Source of the DNA: Leptospiraceae bacterium
GTDB taxonomy: Bacteria > Spirochaetota > Leptospiria > Leptospirales > Leptonemataceae
Length of the DNA: 64,000 nt
Direction: 5' to 3'
Assembly (NCBI GenBank): GCA_026418015.1
Contig: JAOACE010000021.1
Span: 62,001-126,000, forward strand
Positions within the stretch are counted from its first letter, which is position 1. Every line of letters starts with the position of its first letter. The translations under genes and the position numbers were made by a program. Positions 51,524-57,947 of the stretch are shown here, piece after piece. The notes under the pieces are model-generated. The model did not search any database, had not been told where the DNA came from, and was given only the letters and a program-made list of their open reading frames with translations.

Positions 51524-51553
51524 TTGACATAAGAATTTTTGAATTTTTATTTT
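51524..51553 (+). promoter_or_regulatory. Promoter of the ubiquitin-like operon, abutting the start codon
   Basis: A perfect TTGACA (51524-51529) is followed 18 bp later by TATTTT (51548-51553; TTATTT with a 17-bp spacer). The GTG start at 51559 is only 5 bases after it, so transcription should start at or beside the first codon. No ribosome binding site is visible. Confidence 0.6.
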
Positions 51554-51558
51554 TATCT

Positions 51559-52314
51559 GTGAGCAATTTTTTTTTCTCTCTATTGGAGTTTCTTGGCATC
51601 ATCCCTAGAAATTCAAATGAATTTCAAAACATTCCAGAGATCATTCGTCAAGAAGCCGTAGAAAGAAACGCAAATCCAACACGTTCAAAAAAAAATAGTT
51701 CTCGAACAAAGATTGTTTTTAACGACTTATCTAATCAAATCGAAGACTTACAAGATCAAAATGTTGATCCCAATTTATTAAAAGAATTCATAAAAGATTT
51801 ATACGATCCATTATCGGGCGATCCAATACAACTAAGATCAAATCAATATTTGTTTCGTTGTAAAAAATGTTCTGTTTTTTACTTAAAAGAGAGTTATGAT
51901 TTTATTGCCCAAAAAAATCAGAGTAAATGTGTAAGCTGTTTAAGCACAGAAATCATCCCTTACTATTACGACGGAAAGTTGATAAAAATTGCCACATTCA
52001 ACCCTGACTTTGTCACATTAGAGAATTTACACTTACATGTGGGTAAATCCATTAAATTTACAGGAACAATTGTAAAACTCTACGAAAGTAAACGGGGCGA
52101 TTATGCTTTGATGTTCGAAGACAAACCTTGGGTAGAAGGTTTTAAATTGATTGTTTTCTATCCTTTAATGAAAAGGGGAAAAGGACTCGAAAGAGAATTT
52201 TTACAATCCTTAGTGGGGAAAACGATTACAGTTCGTGGACTTTTACAATGTCATGAAATTTATGGTTATGAAATATTAATCTTTAAAAGAAATATGATTT
52301 TAAACATACAATAA
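51559..52314 (+). CDS. Zinc-ribbon/OB-fold protein heading the ubiquitin-like conjugation operon
   Basis: The 251-residue protein starts with GTG. Residues 1-75 are variable and charged. Residues 82-90 are YDPLSGDPI, followed by a zinc site C101-x2-C104 and C124-x2-C127 with YDFI between. This order (D-P-x-S-x-x-P-I, Cys pair, Tyr, Cys pair) recalls variant RING/treble-clef modules. Residues about 155-250 look like an OB fold: VGKSIKFTGTIVKLYESKRG, then GKTITVRGLLQCHEIYGYEI. It could be a substrate adaptor or E3-like factor, or a nucleic-acid-binding target of the pathway. No experimentally studied homologue is known to me. The 12 bp to the next gene contain a strong AAAGGAGG ribosome binding site. 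Confidence 0.65.
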   Translation: MSNFFFSLLEFLGIIPRNSNEFQNIPEIIRQEAVERNANPTRSKKNSSRTKIVFNDLSNQIEDLQDQNVDPNLLKEFIKDLYDPLSGDPIQLRSNQYLFRCKKCSVFYLKESYDFIAQKNQSKCVSCLSTEIIPYYYDGKLIKIATFNPDFVTLENLHLHVGKSIKFTGTIVKLYESKRGDYALMFEDKPWVEGFKLIVFYPLMKRGKGLEREFLQSLVGKTITVRGLLQCHEIYGYEILIFKRNMILNIQ

Positions 52315-52326
52315 AAGGAGGTTTAT

Positions 52327-52581
52327 ATGACTCAGTTAAAGTGTTATGTTCGAACAGCGGATAAAACAAAAAAGGCAGAGATTGGAATTTCTCCAGAAGT
52401 AACTGTACGAGAGATCATAGAAACTTGCATAGAAAAGTGGTCTTTACCAGATAATGTTTCTTATAATCTTGTTAGTATAAACAGAAATATGGTGCTTAAC
52501 CCAAACTATCCTTTAATCGATTTAGGCTTACAAGAAGGAGAAATTCTAGAATTACAACCCATATTAGAAGCTGGTCGTTAG
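52327..52581 (+). CDS. Ubiquitin-like beta-grasp protein
   Basis: The 84-residue protein has the size and strand order of a single ubiquitin-like domain: a first hairpin KCYVRTADKTKKAEIGI, a helix VTVREIIETCIEKW, and a last strand EILELQPIL followed by the tail EAGR. It ends Gly83-Arg84, so removal of one residue would expose a C-terminal Gly, as in ubiquitin-type modifiers. The neighbouring E2, E1 and JAMM genes make a modifier role far more likely than a YukD/EsaB role in type VII secretion, of which there is no other trace. The ribosome binding site AAAGGAGG is the strongest in the operon, suggesting abundant product. Confidence 0.82.
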   Translation: MTQLKCYVRTADKTKKAEIGISPEVTVREIIETCIEKWSLPDNVSYNLVSINRNMVLNPNYPLIDLGLQEGEILELQPILEAGR

Positions 52582-52582
52582 A

Positions 52583-53029
52583 ATGAATCCCATTGTCAAA
52601 CGTAGGTTAAACGATTTACAAAAGTTAAAAGAATTAGAAAAAAAATATTCTTTTATAAAAATCAAAAATGCTAAGGGAGATCCCATCTCGGAAATTTTTA
52701 TCGATCTTCATTTAACTTTACCTATAAGCGAAAAAGAATCGAAAGATTTGTTCGAATTAAAAGTTAAATTGCCATCGGAATATCCTCTTTCTCGACCTTT
52801 GATTTATGTTTCTCCAACTGTATTCAATCCTCATGTATTTGAAAGTGGAAATATTTGCTTAGGTTACCAATGGATGCCATCGATCTTCTTGGATTTAGAA
52901 GTTTTAAGAGTAATCAAATTACTCTTATTGTACCCAGAATTTATTAATCCTAATTCTCCAGCTAATTCGAATGCATTAAGTTGGTACAAAAAAAATAAAA
53001 AAAAATTTCCCTTGTTAAAAATTGACTGA
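52583..53029 (+). CDS. E2 ubiquitin-conjugating-enzyme-like protein
   Basis: The 148-residue protein has the UBC fold signature. The strand region ELKVKLPSEYPLSRPLIYV corresponds to the Y-P-x-x-x-P part of E2 enzymes. FNPHVFESGNICLGYQW contains the catalytic Cys92 in the canonical G-N-I-C-L context, with Pro-His in place of the H-P-N tripeptide. PNSPANSNALSWYKKN at the C-terminus matches the P-x-x-P-x-N-x-x-A-x-x-Y pattern of eukaryotic E2s. It should accept the Ubl from the E1 as a thioester and pass it to a target. It starts one base after the Ubl stop. Confidence 0.88.
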   Translation: MNPIVKRRLNDLQKLKELEKKYSFIKIKNAKGDPISEIFIDLHLTLPISEKESKDLFELKVKLPSEYPLSRPLIYVSPTVFNPHVFESGNICLGYQWMPSIFLDLEVLRVIKLLLLYPEFINPNSPANSNALSWYKKNKKKFPLLKID

Positions 53030-53032
53030 TTT

Positions 53033-54127
53033 ATGGATCGATTCTACATAGATAGATATATTCGCCATCAATCAATTCATTGGTTCAATCAGGAAGAGCT
53101 TTTTCGAAAAAATGTCCTGATTGTAGGCATGGGAGCTATTGGTAATGAACTTCTAAAAAACATGGTTTTATTAGGCATCGGAAATATAACTATCATTGAT
53201 TTCGATAAAATCGAAATTCACAATCTTACAAGAAGTGTTTTATTTCGCGAAGAAGATATCGGAAAATATAAGGTTCAAGTAGCAAAAGAAAGAGCAAAAG
53301 AATTAAACCCTGATCCGCGTATAAAAATTCAAACTTTTAACGACGATTTCTATCAAATTGTAAGTTTAAGTTTTTTAGAACAATTCGATGTTGTTTTCTC
53401 TGCTGTGGATAATTTCGAAGCACGCATCCGTCTACATCGCTTATGCTATTTGAATAAGGTTGATTTTATCAATGCGGGAATTGACAGTCAATATGTGAAC
53501 GTAGAATATTTTCCTTATAGCAATAGCAAAAATCATCTTGCTTGCTTCGAATGCAATCTAAGTGACAAAGTTTATCAAAATATCAACAAAAGATATTCTT
53601 GTGGTTGGATAGAAAAAACTGCAATTAACCAAAAAAAGATCCCCACTACAATTATTACGTCTTCTATTGCTGCATCTTTTATGTTATCTTGTTTTTTAAG
53701 AAGAGACGAGTTCGTTGATCCAACAAAAATTTTTATCGATACGATCCATCCTAATATAACGAAAGCTAATCTACAAAAAAACCAAGATTGCTATTTTTGT
53801 TCTAACTGGGGAAATACCCAACAAAAATCATGGAAAGAGTTCTTAAAAGGCATACAAAATTTAAAAGACGAAATAACCTTTTTTCTGAACGAACCTATCT
53901 TGATTTCTTTAAGATGCGAAGTGTGCAATAAAACAGAATTGATTTGGGACCTTTCGCGAAAATTCAAAGATAAGGATTTAATTTGTCATACCTGTAAAAG
54001 CAATCGACAACCAGAAGTAAGGGATTATATCTATAAAAACGAAATTCAATATATTGAAAATTTAAGTTTTAAATATTTATATTATTTTATGAATAATTTA
54101 ACAGTTTTGGTTAAAAAAGATGATTGA
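53033..54127 (+). CDS. E1-like (ThiF family) Ubl-activating enzyme
   Basis: The 364-residue protein has the adenylation core: VGMGAIGNELLKN (nucleotide loop G32-G37), IIDFDKIEIHNLTR with D56, D58, N64 and R67, K79, and AVDNFEAR with D126. Cys pairs C171-x2-C174 and C253-x2-C256 form the structural zinc site known from MoeB/ThiF. C190 in SCGW, before IPTTIITSSIAA, is the likely catalytic Cys for thioester transfer. An added C-terminal part (about 290-364) has a second zinc ribbon C295-x2-C298/C318-x2-C321. It adenylates the Ubl C-terminus and hands it to the E2. It overlaps the JAMM gene by 8 bp. Confidence 0.9.
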   Translation: MDRFYIDRYIRHQSIHWFNQEELFRKNVLIVGMGAIGNELLKNMVLLGIGNITIIDFDKIEIHNLTRSVLFREEDIGKYKVQVAKERAKELNPDPRIKIQTFNDDFYQIVSLSFLEQFDVVFSAVDNFEARIRLHRLCYLNKVDFINAGIDSQYVNVEYFPYSNSKNHLACFECNLSDKVYQNINKRYSCGWIEKTAINQKKIPTTIITSSIAASFMLSCFLRRDEFVDPTKIFIDTIHPNITKANLQKNQDCYFCSNWGNTQQKSWKEFLKGIQNLKDEITFFLNEPILISLRCEVCNKTELIWDLSRKFKDKDLICHTCKSNRQPEVRDYIYKNEIQYIENLSFKYLYYFMNNLTVLVKKDD

Positions 54128-54683
54128 TTGGAAAGAAGAAGAACCAGACATCCAAGTTATTCCATTTAGCGAATTTCCATTAGATAGATTGACTTTAAAT
54201 TATTTTGAATTTATAAATTATATTAATAAAAATTATTTTATTTTTTTTCACCCTAGTGCTTGGGATAAAATGTGGCAACATGGCAGAAGTTCTTTTAAGG
54301 AGGTTGGTGGACTTTTAATTGGATTTGTGTATCAGTATAACGATCATTTTCTTTGGTATATAGAAGAGATTGTATACAACAACGATTTTGAGCATTCATT
54401 TTCTCATGTAGTTTTGTATCCGTCTTTGTGGCAAGATGCAAATGCAATCATCTTAAACCAACAAGGCAATCCGGAAAAGTTTATCTTAGGTTGGTATCAT
54501 ACCCATCCGCGATTTACGCCTTTTTTTAGTAATACTGATCAGAATACTCATAGATATTTTTTTAATTTTGATTATTCTCTTGGAATTGTATTCGATCCTT
54601 ATTCTGAACAAATCTTATTCTATATTGGTGGTAATACAAAACTTTATAAAGATAAATTCTTGATTTGTGAACTTTTAAGATAA
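54120..54683 (+). CDS. JAMM/MPN-domain metalloprotease (Ubl-processing isopeptidase type)
   Basis: The 187-residue protein has a complete JAMM site: E61 in KEVGGLLIGF, then H127-T-H129-P, S137 and D140 (HTHP...FFSNTD, spacing H-x-H-x7-S-x2-D). JAMM enzymes cleave peptide or isopeptide bonds after a Ubl C-terminus. Here it could trim the Arg that follows Gly83 of the Ubl precursor and could reverse conjugation. It is the last gene of the five-gene operon. A hairpin follows directly after its stop codon. Confidence 0.88.
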   Translation: MIDWKEEEPDIQVIPFSEFPLDRLTLNYFEFINYINKNYFIFFHPSAWDKMWQHGRSSFKEVGGLLIGFVYQYNDHFLWYIEEIVYNNDFEHSFSHVVLYPSLWQDANAIILNQQGNPEKFILGWYHTHPRFTPFFSNTDQNTHRYFFNFDYSLGIVFDPYSEQILFYIGGNTKLYKDKFLICELLR

Positions 54684-57264: not shown

Positions 57265-57528
57265 GTGAACAAGGATAAACAATCACCAAAAATTACAAGA
57301 AAAAAACGATTTAATCTTTTACTTACAGAAGAAGAATATCATTTTCTAAATAAAATATCTTTAATAGAAAATAAGCCTATATCAGAAATTTTAAGAAACG
57401 CTGTGGATTTTTTATATCATCCAGAAAATAAAGAAAATATAATAAAAAATTTAGAATTAATTTATAACAAAAATTATATAAATTATGATGAAAATTTAAA
57501 AGAATTTATAAATTTTTACCTAAAATGA
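57265..57528 (+). CDS. Ribbon-helix-helix antitoxin-like protein
   Basis: The 87-residue product begins with GTG. Residues about 14-55 fit a ribbon-helix-helix DNA-binding domain: a strand RFNLLLTEEEYHFLNKISL, then ENKPISEILRNAVDFLY. The Lys-rich N-terminus and a C-terminal tail rich in Asn, Tyr and Lys match antitoxins that wrap round their toxin. Its stop codon overlaps the ATG of the next gene (ATGA). It probably represses its own promoter, which must lie inside the hydrolase gene because the two start codons are one base apart. Confidence 0.65.
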   Translation: MNKDKQSPKITRKKRFNLLLTEEEYHFLNKISLIENKPISEILRNAVDFLYHPENKENIIKNLELIYNKNYINYDENLKEFINFYLK

Positions 57529-57947
57529 AAAAACGAATATTTTTAGACGATAGTATTCTATTTTTTTTAACCATAAAACATCCACTAAAAAAGGAGATTT
57601 ATGATCAATTAAGTTATTTTATAAAAAACAATTATTATCCTGTAAGTTCTCTTTATAGTTTACTAAAAATACAAAACATATTTTTAAAACTAAATCAATT
57701 GAGCCATTTTTTCGAATTCTTCTATGATCTAGAACAATTTTTAGAAAATATTTATCCAGTGGACCAAGAAGATTATAAAGAAGCAATCCATCTTTATAAA
57801 CAATTTAACATAGATTTTGATTTAGCATATTATATCGCGATGATAAAGAAACATCAAATCGATAAATTCTATTCTGTGCAATTTAAAGATAAAAGAGAAC
57901 AATTACTAAATCAGTTTAATATTTCTATGATTTACCCTTATGGATAA
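57525..57947 (+). CDS. PIN-like toxin-type protein
   Basis: The 140-residue product starts MKKRIFLDDSILFFL, with the acidic pair expected at the first strand of a PIN nuclease domain. Further acidic residues appear in VDQEDYKEAI, NIDFDLAYYIAMI and VQFKDKREQLL, in the order expected for the remaining metal ligands. With the RHH-type gene upstream it forms a VapBC-like toxin-antitoxin pair. The second conserved acidic position (usually a Glu near residue 40) is not clear, so activity is uncertain. Its 3' end overlaps the convergent gene by 23 bp. Confidence 0.6.
   Translation: MKKRIFLDDSILFFLTIKHPLKKEIYDQLSYFIKNNYYPVSSLYSLLKIQNIFLKLNQLSHFFEFFYDLEQFLENIYPVDQEDYKEAIHLYKQFNIDFDLAYYIAMIKKHQIDKFYSVQFKDKREQLLNQFNISMIYPYG

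Follow-up and report, generated by a model that had tools for sequence, protein, structure and literature searches.

A probable ubiquitin-like protein-conjugation operon in one genus of the Leptospirales

Does a compact operon of a Leptospiraceae bacterium encode a complete pathway for attaching a ubiquitin-like protein (Ubl) to other proteins, and would such a pathway serve the cell itself or its defence against phages? Bacterial pathways that contain an E2 conjugating enzyme have been worked out mainly for the defence-linked systems CBASS, Bil and Bub. The operon lies at positions 51559-54683 on the forward strand of the window, i.e., the whole analysed stretch of 64,000 nucleotides from contig JAOACE010000021.1, and consists of five open reading frames (ORFs): gene 1, Ubl, E2, the E1 activating enzyme and a JAMM metalloprotease, separated by 12, 1, 3 and -8 bp. 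We consider it likely that these genes constitute a complete, functional Ubl protein-conjugation pathway of the YukD-like-Ubl/E1/E2/JAMM class, present throughout one genus of the Leptospirales. The features are as follows:

51524..51553, forward strand: promoter-like TTGACA-18-TATTTT just 5' of gene 1, from a consensus scan; a weak candidate, as such sites are no more numerous in the region than in shuffled sequences
51559..52314, forward strand: gene 1, 251 residues, candidate E3-like adaptor, without a Pfam family
52327..52581, forward strand: Ubl precursor, 84 residues, YukD-like beta-grasp protein (YukD E=1.7e-4 to 3.5e-5), preceded by a good ribosome-binding site (AGGAGG); its ...LEAG is kept in the genus
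52570..52578, forward strand: codons of Ala82-Gly83-Arg84, with Gly83/Arg84 as the predicted JAMM cleavage site, suggested by tail variation and analogy to Caldiarchaeum (PMC5654768)
52583..53029, forward strand: E2 with UBC fold and Cys92, N82-P83-H84 in place of HPN (UQ_con E=3e-13)
53033..54127, forward strand: E1, 364 residues, one ThiF-type adenylation domain, predicted catalytic Cys190 and a C-terminal domain with zinc motifs (ThiF E=2e-46)
54120..54683, forward strand: JAMM/Rpn11-like metalloprotease with E61, H127, H129, S137 and D140 (JAB E=6e-8)

In a Pfam scan of the five window proteins, judged against the curated cut-offs, E2, E1 and JAMM all passed with the families given above, the Ubl matched YukD weakly and gene 1 matched no family. 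By sequence, the closest solved relatives of these parts, found in the PDB with profiles of four sequences each, are Uba1 for the E1 (E=2e-36), UBE2A, UBE2L3 and UBC9 for the E2, and Rpn11, including that of Caldiarchaeum, for the JAMM protein. All four genomes of our genus sample contain the five genes in identical order, located at three different chromosomal sites. The catalytic residues of the three enzymes are unchanged in these genomes (C92 of the E2; C190 of the E1, together with four CxxC pairs, half of them in its adenylation part and half in its C-terminal domain; the five residues of the JAMM metal site), as is H84 of the E2. The catalytic residues recur in most of the distant PVC and cyanobacterial relatives, where the metal-site motif of the predicted JAB/JAMM peptidase is kept as well. 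Taken together, one gene order in four genomes at three sites and the recurrence of the catalytic residues exclude a chance arrangement. The description in the initial annotation of a tightly spaced five-gene unit with a full Ubl, E2, E1 and JAMM set, an extra gene ahead of the Ubl, adenylation, thioester and zinc-binding residues in the E1 and an intact JAMM motif is thus confirmed, down to coordinates and gaps.

To assess the distribution of the operon, we compared the genus sample with 389 other genomes of the phylum. The host is a Leptospira-like spirochaete, as had been supposed, with Leptospiraceae bacterium KatS3mg129 as a genus mate. The question whether the operon is core or patchy has a divided answer: it is core within the genus (4 of 4 genomes), and beyond the genus the profiles of E2 and gene 1 gave zero matches among the 389 sampled genomes. 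One match elsewhere in the phylum (genome G289) was rejected as chance, since it contained stop codons, was not accompanied by the operon and was gone in the profile search. In the genome contigs, a scan with a single E1 sequence found nothing, whereas an alignment-based scan of the same contigs found four loci. In two genus members, the operon has a chemoreceptor gene on one side and serA on the other (checked for the genes next to the window operon); in the third it sits between a gene for a carboxylase and a secretion locus of pseudopilin type, and in the fourth between sucCD and pdxJ (gene names in the latter two read from the sequence). These neighbours bear out the earlier observation of a setting among housekeeping genes, and no defence gene directly adjoins the operon at any of the three sites. 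Within the genus, E1 identity is 52-70%, compared with 80-91% for SerA (relative to the window copy, 80-81% in G001 and G003 and 84-91% in G002), and the G+C content of the operon tracks that of each host genome. This pattern fits descent from an ancestor of the genus combined with faster evolution and relocation; transfer of the operon between genus members is a possible alternative to vertical descent. In KatS3mg129 (G002), serA at L009:12426-14022 is split into two overlapping ORFs, owing to a frameshift or an assembly error.

Relatives of the operon were found in other phyla. Profile scanning turned up a contig from Verrucomicrobia in which genes for a YukD-like Ubl, E1, JAB, FHA and Prok-RING_1 proteins and E2 stand in a row, and a Phycisphaerae locus has a comparable layout; related E2 proteins occur in 28 of the 246 sampled genomes of the latter's phylum. 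A mobilisable plasmid of Crinalium (L017:5992-11210) encodes E1, two Ubls (with the ends GGY and EVS), E2 and JAMM; the gene after them carries the annotation type IV secretion conjugative transfer protein. Among 19 neighbourhoods of E2 matches, most contain Ubl, E1 and JAMM beside the E2, and many contain one or more RING-like motifs; in the planctomycete operons L060-L063 and L067, two or three such motifs lie between JAMM and E2. Because a RING motif scan found none beside the relatives L017, L068 and L072-L076, we do not treat a RING protein, which is common but not universal in the class and absent from the window operon, as defining. Three planctomycete E2 relatives (L066, L070 and L071) carry Tyr or His at the position of the catalytic Cys, and their surroundings yielded no E1, Ubl or JAMM. 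A profile built from the four genus Ubls and that of L015 retrieved planctomycete Ubls at 1e-11 to 1e-22. In the E1 tree, the genus forms a long branch of its own, and with several forks left open the tree does not settle its nearest relative.

Burroughs, Iyer and Aravind reportedly described in 2011 prokaryotic systems that combine a YukD-like Ubl, an E1 with a C-terminal ubiquitin-fold domain (UFD), an E2, a JAB protein and a RING protein. As judged from the sequences, the operon belongs to this bacterial class, which is already known but little studied, and not to Bil, because its relatives in Verrucomicrobia, Planctomycetota and on the cyanobacterial plasmid are YukD-like-Ubl operons and because the features that define Bil are absent. 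Hence the Bil-type assignment of the initial annotation had to be abandoned: PADLOC gave no match to BilA, BilB or BilC at E up to 1 and matched BilD only via the generic ThiF domain, and the E1 lacks both the inactive adenylation domain of BilD and its Cys-domain insertion. Related E1/E2/JAB/RING operons have been summarised previously (PMC7159879).

An AlphaFold2 model of the E1 (pLDDT 79.5) is good apart from residues 1-7 and the low-confidence loop 182-203, in which C190 lies. VIA-align matched this model to MoeB with Z 29.4 (residues 2-257, 230 residues, 2.1 Å) and to Uba1 with Z about 26 to 27 (residues 7-362, approximately 280 residues, 3 to 3.5 Å); in Uba1 and SAE2, the counterpart of the C-terminal domain was the UFD end. 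Because the Uba1 alignment spans so much more of the protein than the MoeB alignment does, the modelled C-terminal domain, which carries the additional zinc pairs, matches the E2-presenting UFD of eukaryotic E1s; since the output of VIA-align gives only the first and last aligned residues, this match rests on the range and the aligned length. The protein is therefore predicted to combine an active-site Cys with a C-terminal UFD. For the E2, the sequence matches predict a UBC fold, with the invariant Cys92 as the putative catalytic residue. Its motif reads NPH in two genus members, including the window, and HPH in the other two, while the relatives mostly have HPN and one planctomycete has HLH. 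Thus, of the canonical context that had been claimed for Cys92, the invariant cysteine stands and the HPN motif does not.

The window Ubl is a single beta-grasp domain, consistent with the earlier remark that it has one Ubl domain where BilABCD has more. The four genus Ubls share the sequence ...LEAG, followed by unrelated tails of 1-12 residues (R, IFYESDHKKKRK, NESHL and SYESYS). The same type of ending, ...AG plus 0-12 unrelated residues, was found in 15 of 19 family Ubls, and one further Ubl has ...GG plus Y. In three genus members, the tail-coding part of the Ubl gene overlaps the beginning of the E2 gene, which uses a different frame; therefore, the tail sequence looks set by the neighbouring gene rather than by need. 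The Gly-Arg end that had been taken as functional is accordingly dropped, as behind the conserved Ala-Gly the genus has several unrelated tails, of which the Arg is one. Tail variation suggests Ala82-Gly83 as the mature end, with Arg84 as the tail. The shared ...LEAG before unrelated tails and the recurrence of the Ala-Gly end across the family indicate that the JAMM protease probably trims the Ubl. By analogy, trimming of the Caldiarchaeum pro-ubiquitin by Rpn11 was shown experimentally to be required before the E1 accepts ubiquitin (PMC5654768, PMC6043591), and BilC was reported to trim BilA (PMC11354881).

These parts suggest the following course of events. JAMM would cut the Ubl behind Ala-Gly, removing the short tail and thereby exposing this end; the E1 would adenylate the terminal glycine and take over the Ubl as a thioester on Cys190; and the UFD-like domain of the E1 would pass it on to Cys92 of the E2. 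The E2 could then join the Ubl to amino groups on proteins of the cell, with targets perhaps chosen by gene 1 as its partner, and JAMM might also undo the modification. Nothing points to a 20S proteasome as the destination of modified proteins, as each of the four genus genomes encodes a single PF00227 protein of 184-191 residues, the size of HslV. Several points weigh against a working conjugation pathway. The match of the Ubl to YukD, the best Pfam match in the three genus Ubls scanned, stays below the 27-bit cut-off, and YukD of Bacillus subtilis was reported as not conjugated (PMC1779556). The Asn of the HPN motif in the E2 is replaced by His, and no RING E3 of the Prok-RING_1 family was found in any of the four genus genomes.

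This absence makes gene 1 an attractive E3 candidate, which might replace the missing RING protein. Orthologues of gene 1 are present in all four genus members and in none of the 389 other genomes, its profile had no match in the operon neighbourhoods of other phyla, and a profile search of the PDB yielded nothing convincing. It contains a zinc motif, CxxC-x19-CxxC (C101, C104, C124 and C127), in a strand-strand-helix context, but the AlphaFold2 model is poor (pLDDT 47.8), with a low-confidence N-terminus and moderate values only at about 93-143 and in parts of 160-250. For residues 154-251, OB-folds were matched at Z values of at most 6.9, a range that a common arrangement alone can produce.

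SP-RING ligases are RINGs that have lost the first zinc site. It is conceivable that gene 1 is an E3 of similar style, in which the zinc segment is a RING keeping only its second site and the OB-fold picks the targets, although we regard this as tentative. In the low-confidence model, the segment DPLxGDPI...RCKKCSVFYLKESYDFI...KCVSC is arranged as strand-strand-helix, as a RING would be, we read the four kept cysteines as placed at the ligand positions of RING site 2, and many relatives encode at least one RING-like protein next to the E2 where the genus has no Prok-RING_1 protein. However, RING homology was not supported by hhalign against 19 planctomycete and verrucomicrobial RING segments (probability 2.4%, within the range of cysteine-preserving shuffles), and isolated segments of the protein gave just weak zinc-ribbon noise and no RING family in Pfam. 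Gene 1 may instead, just as tentatively, be a dedicated substrate or a nucleic-acid sensor composed of zinc finger and OB-fold and itself regulated by the Ubl. Many of its OB-fold matches bind nucleic acid (RPA, Stn1/Ten1, PriB and RecG), but OB-folds bind proteins too, and every match was weak (Foldseek E above 0.007, Z below 8).

With regard to the purpose of the pathway, the genomic evidence suggests that protein tagging with a regulatory role in the cell, not defence, is most likely, because the operon is present in every sampled genus member among housekeeping genes and because neither the E2 in phage records and viral contigs nor gene 1 in viral contigs had a match. For the E1, the viral contigs contained only two short ThiF-like fragments. 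The E2 search of phages, like that of plasmids, which had no match either, used a single sequence (tblastn) and is insensitive, as the Crinalium plasmid relative exists. An anti-phage system that tags phage structural proteins as Bil does, built from another class of parts, appears unlikely. The sparse distribution across phyla, the relative on a mobilisable plasmid, the occurrence of related prokaryotic Ubl systems in conflict systems (PMC7159879) and the Bil and CBASS precedents would be in line with it; its presence in all four genus genomes, the lack of an adjacent defence gene, the viral searches and the PADLOC result argue against it. Regulatory tagging by a genus-fixed pathway could take a more specific form, with a one-zinc RING-like/OB-fold E3 and an HPH-type E2 that conjugates a modifier ending in Ala-Gly, perhaps to the N-termini of proteins; we offer this combination as a long shot. 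A sulphur-carrier pathway, in which a thiocarboxylate at the Ubl C terminus passes sulphur like ThiS/MoaD with E2 and JAMM as accessories, is very improbable despite the single adenylation domain of the E1 and its Z of 29 with MoeB and ThiF, given the UBC-fold E2 and the UFD-like E1 domain, an operon without a rhodanese or sulphur-metabolism gene, and a separate MoeB/ThiF-like protein elsewhere in the genome (L003). With its presence in every sampled genus member and no clear sign of mobility, the operon could reveal roles of bacterial protein tagging outside phage defence.

Approximately 2.6 kb downstream of the operon (57265-57947), two overlapping ORFs stand out: a small gene that weakly matches ribbon-helix-helix proteins (RH3) and, after it, an ORF of 140 residues that may be PIN-like. 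The two genes look like a toxin-antitoxin pair, and they were also found in KatS3mg129 (L009).

Among known systems, type II CBASS (Cap2/Cap3) differs in that the E1 and E2 of the window are separate genes without fusion, and no CD-NTase was seen among the neighbours scanned. BilABCD likewise unites Ubl, E2, JAMM and E1 in one operon, and its BilA precursor is trimmed by the JAMM protein (PMC11354881). However, BilA has two Ubl domains, and BilD combines an inactive and an active adenylation domain with a helical Cys domain of about 80 residues (PMC11354881), whereas the window E1 has one adenylation domain and no such insertion. BilB carries the CEHH signature (Cys, Glu at +6, His at +8 and His at +13), where the window E2 has M98, S100 and L105 after C92. 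The ubiquitin operon of Caldiarchaeum subterraneum (PMC5654768, PMC6043591) is similarly compact, with the order Ub-E2-E1, a neighbouring Rpn11/JAMM, to which the window JAMM matches, and a ubiquitin precursor with a short tail, as predicted for the window Ubl. The archaeal ubiquitin ends in Gly-Gly and is accompanied by a small RING protein, in contrast to the predicted Ala-Gly end and the missing Prok-RING_1 protein here, and the archaeal E1 was reported to have a distinct catalytic-Cys domain (PMC11354881). At the level of the E2, HPH was described as specific to Ube2w, in which the second His substitutes for the Asn in the oxyanion hole (PMC4630614). Two of the four genus E2s have, like this family, HPH in place of HPN at equal spacing to the catalytic Cys, but the other two read NPH, and the E2 profile of the genus is closer to UBE2A/UBE2L3/UBC9.

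The closest correspondence is with the YukD-like Ubl class, with which the operon shares an E1 with a C-terminal UFD-like domain, a UBC-fold E2 with catalytic Cys, a stand-alone JAB protein and, on a single Ubl that resembles YukD weakly, the predicted Ala-Gly end common to most planctomycete and verrucomicrobial members found. Within this class, the operon is distinguished by its host phylum Spirochaetota, the order Ubl-E2-E1-JAMM and the lack of a RING gene, and especially by an unusual Ubl ending, an E2 motif changed to (H/N)PH where the relatives mostly have HPN, and the extra, genus-specific gene 1.

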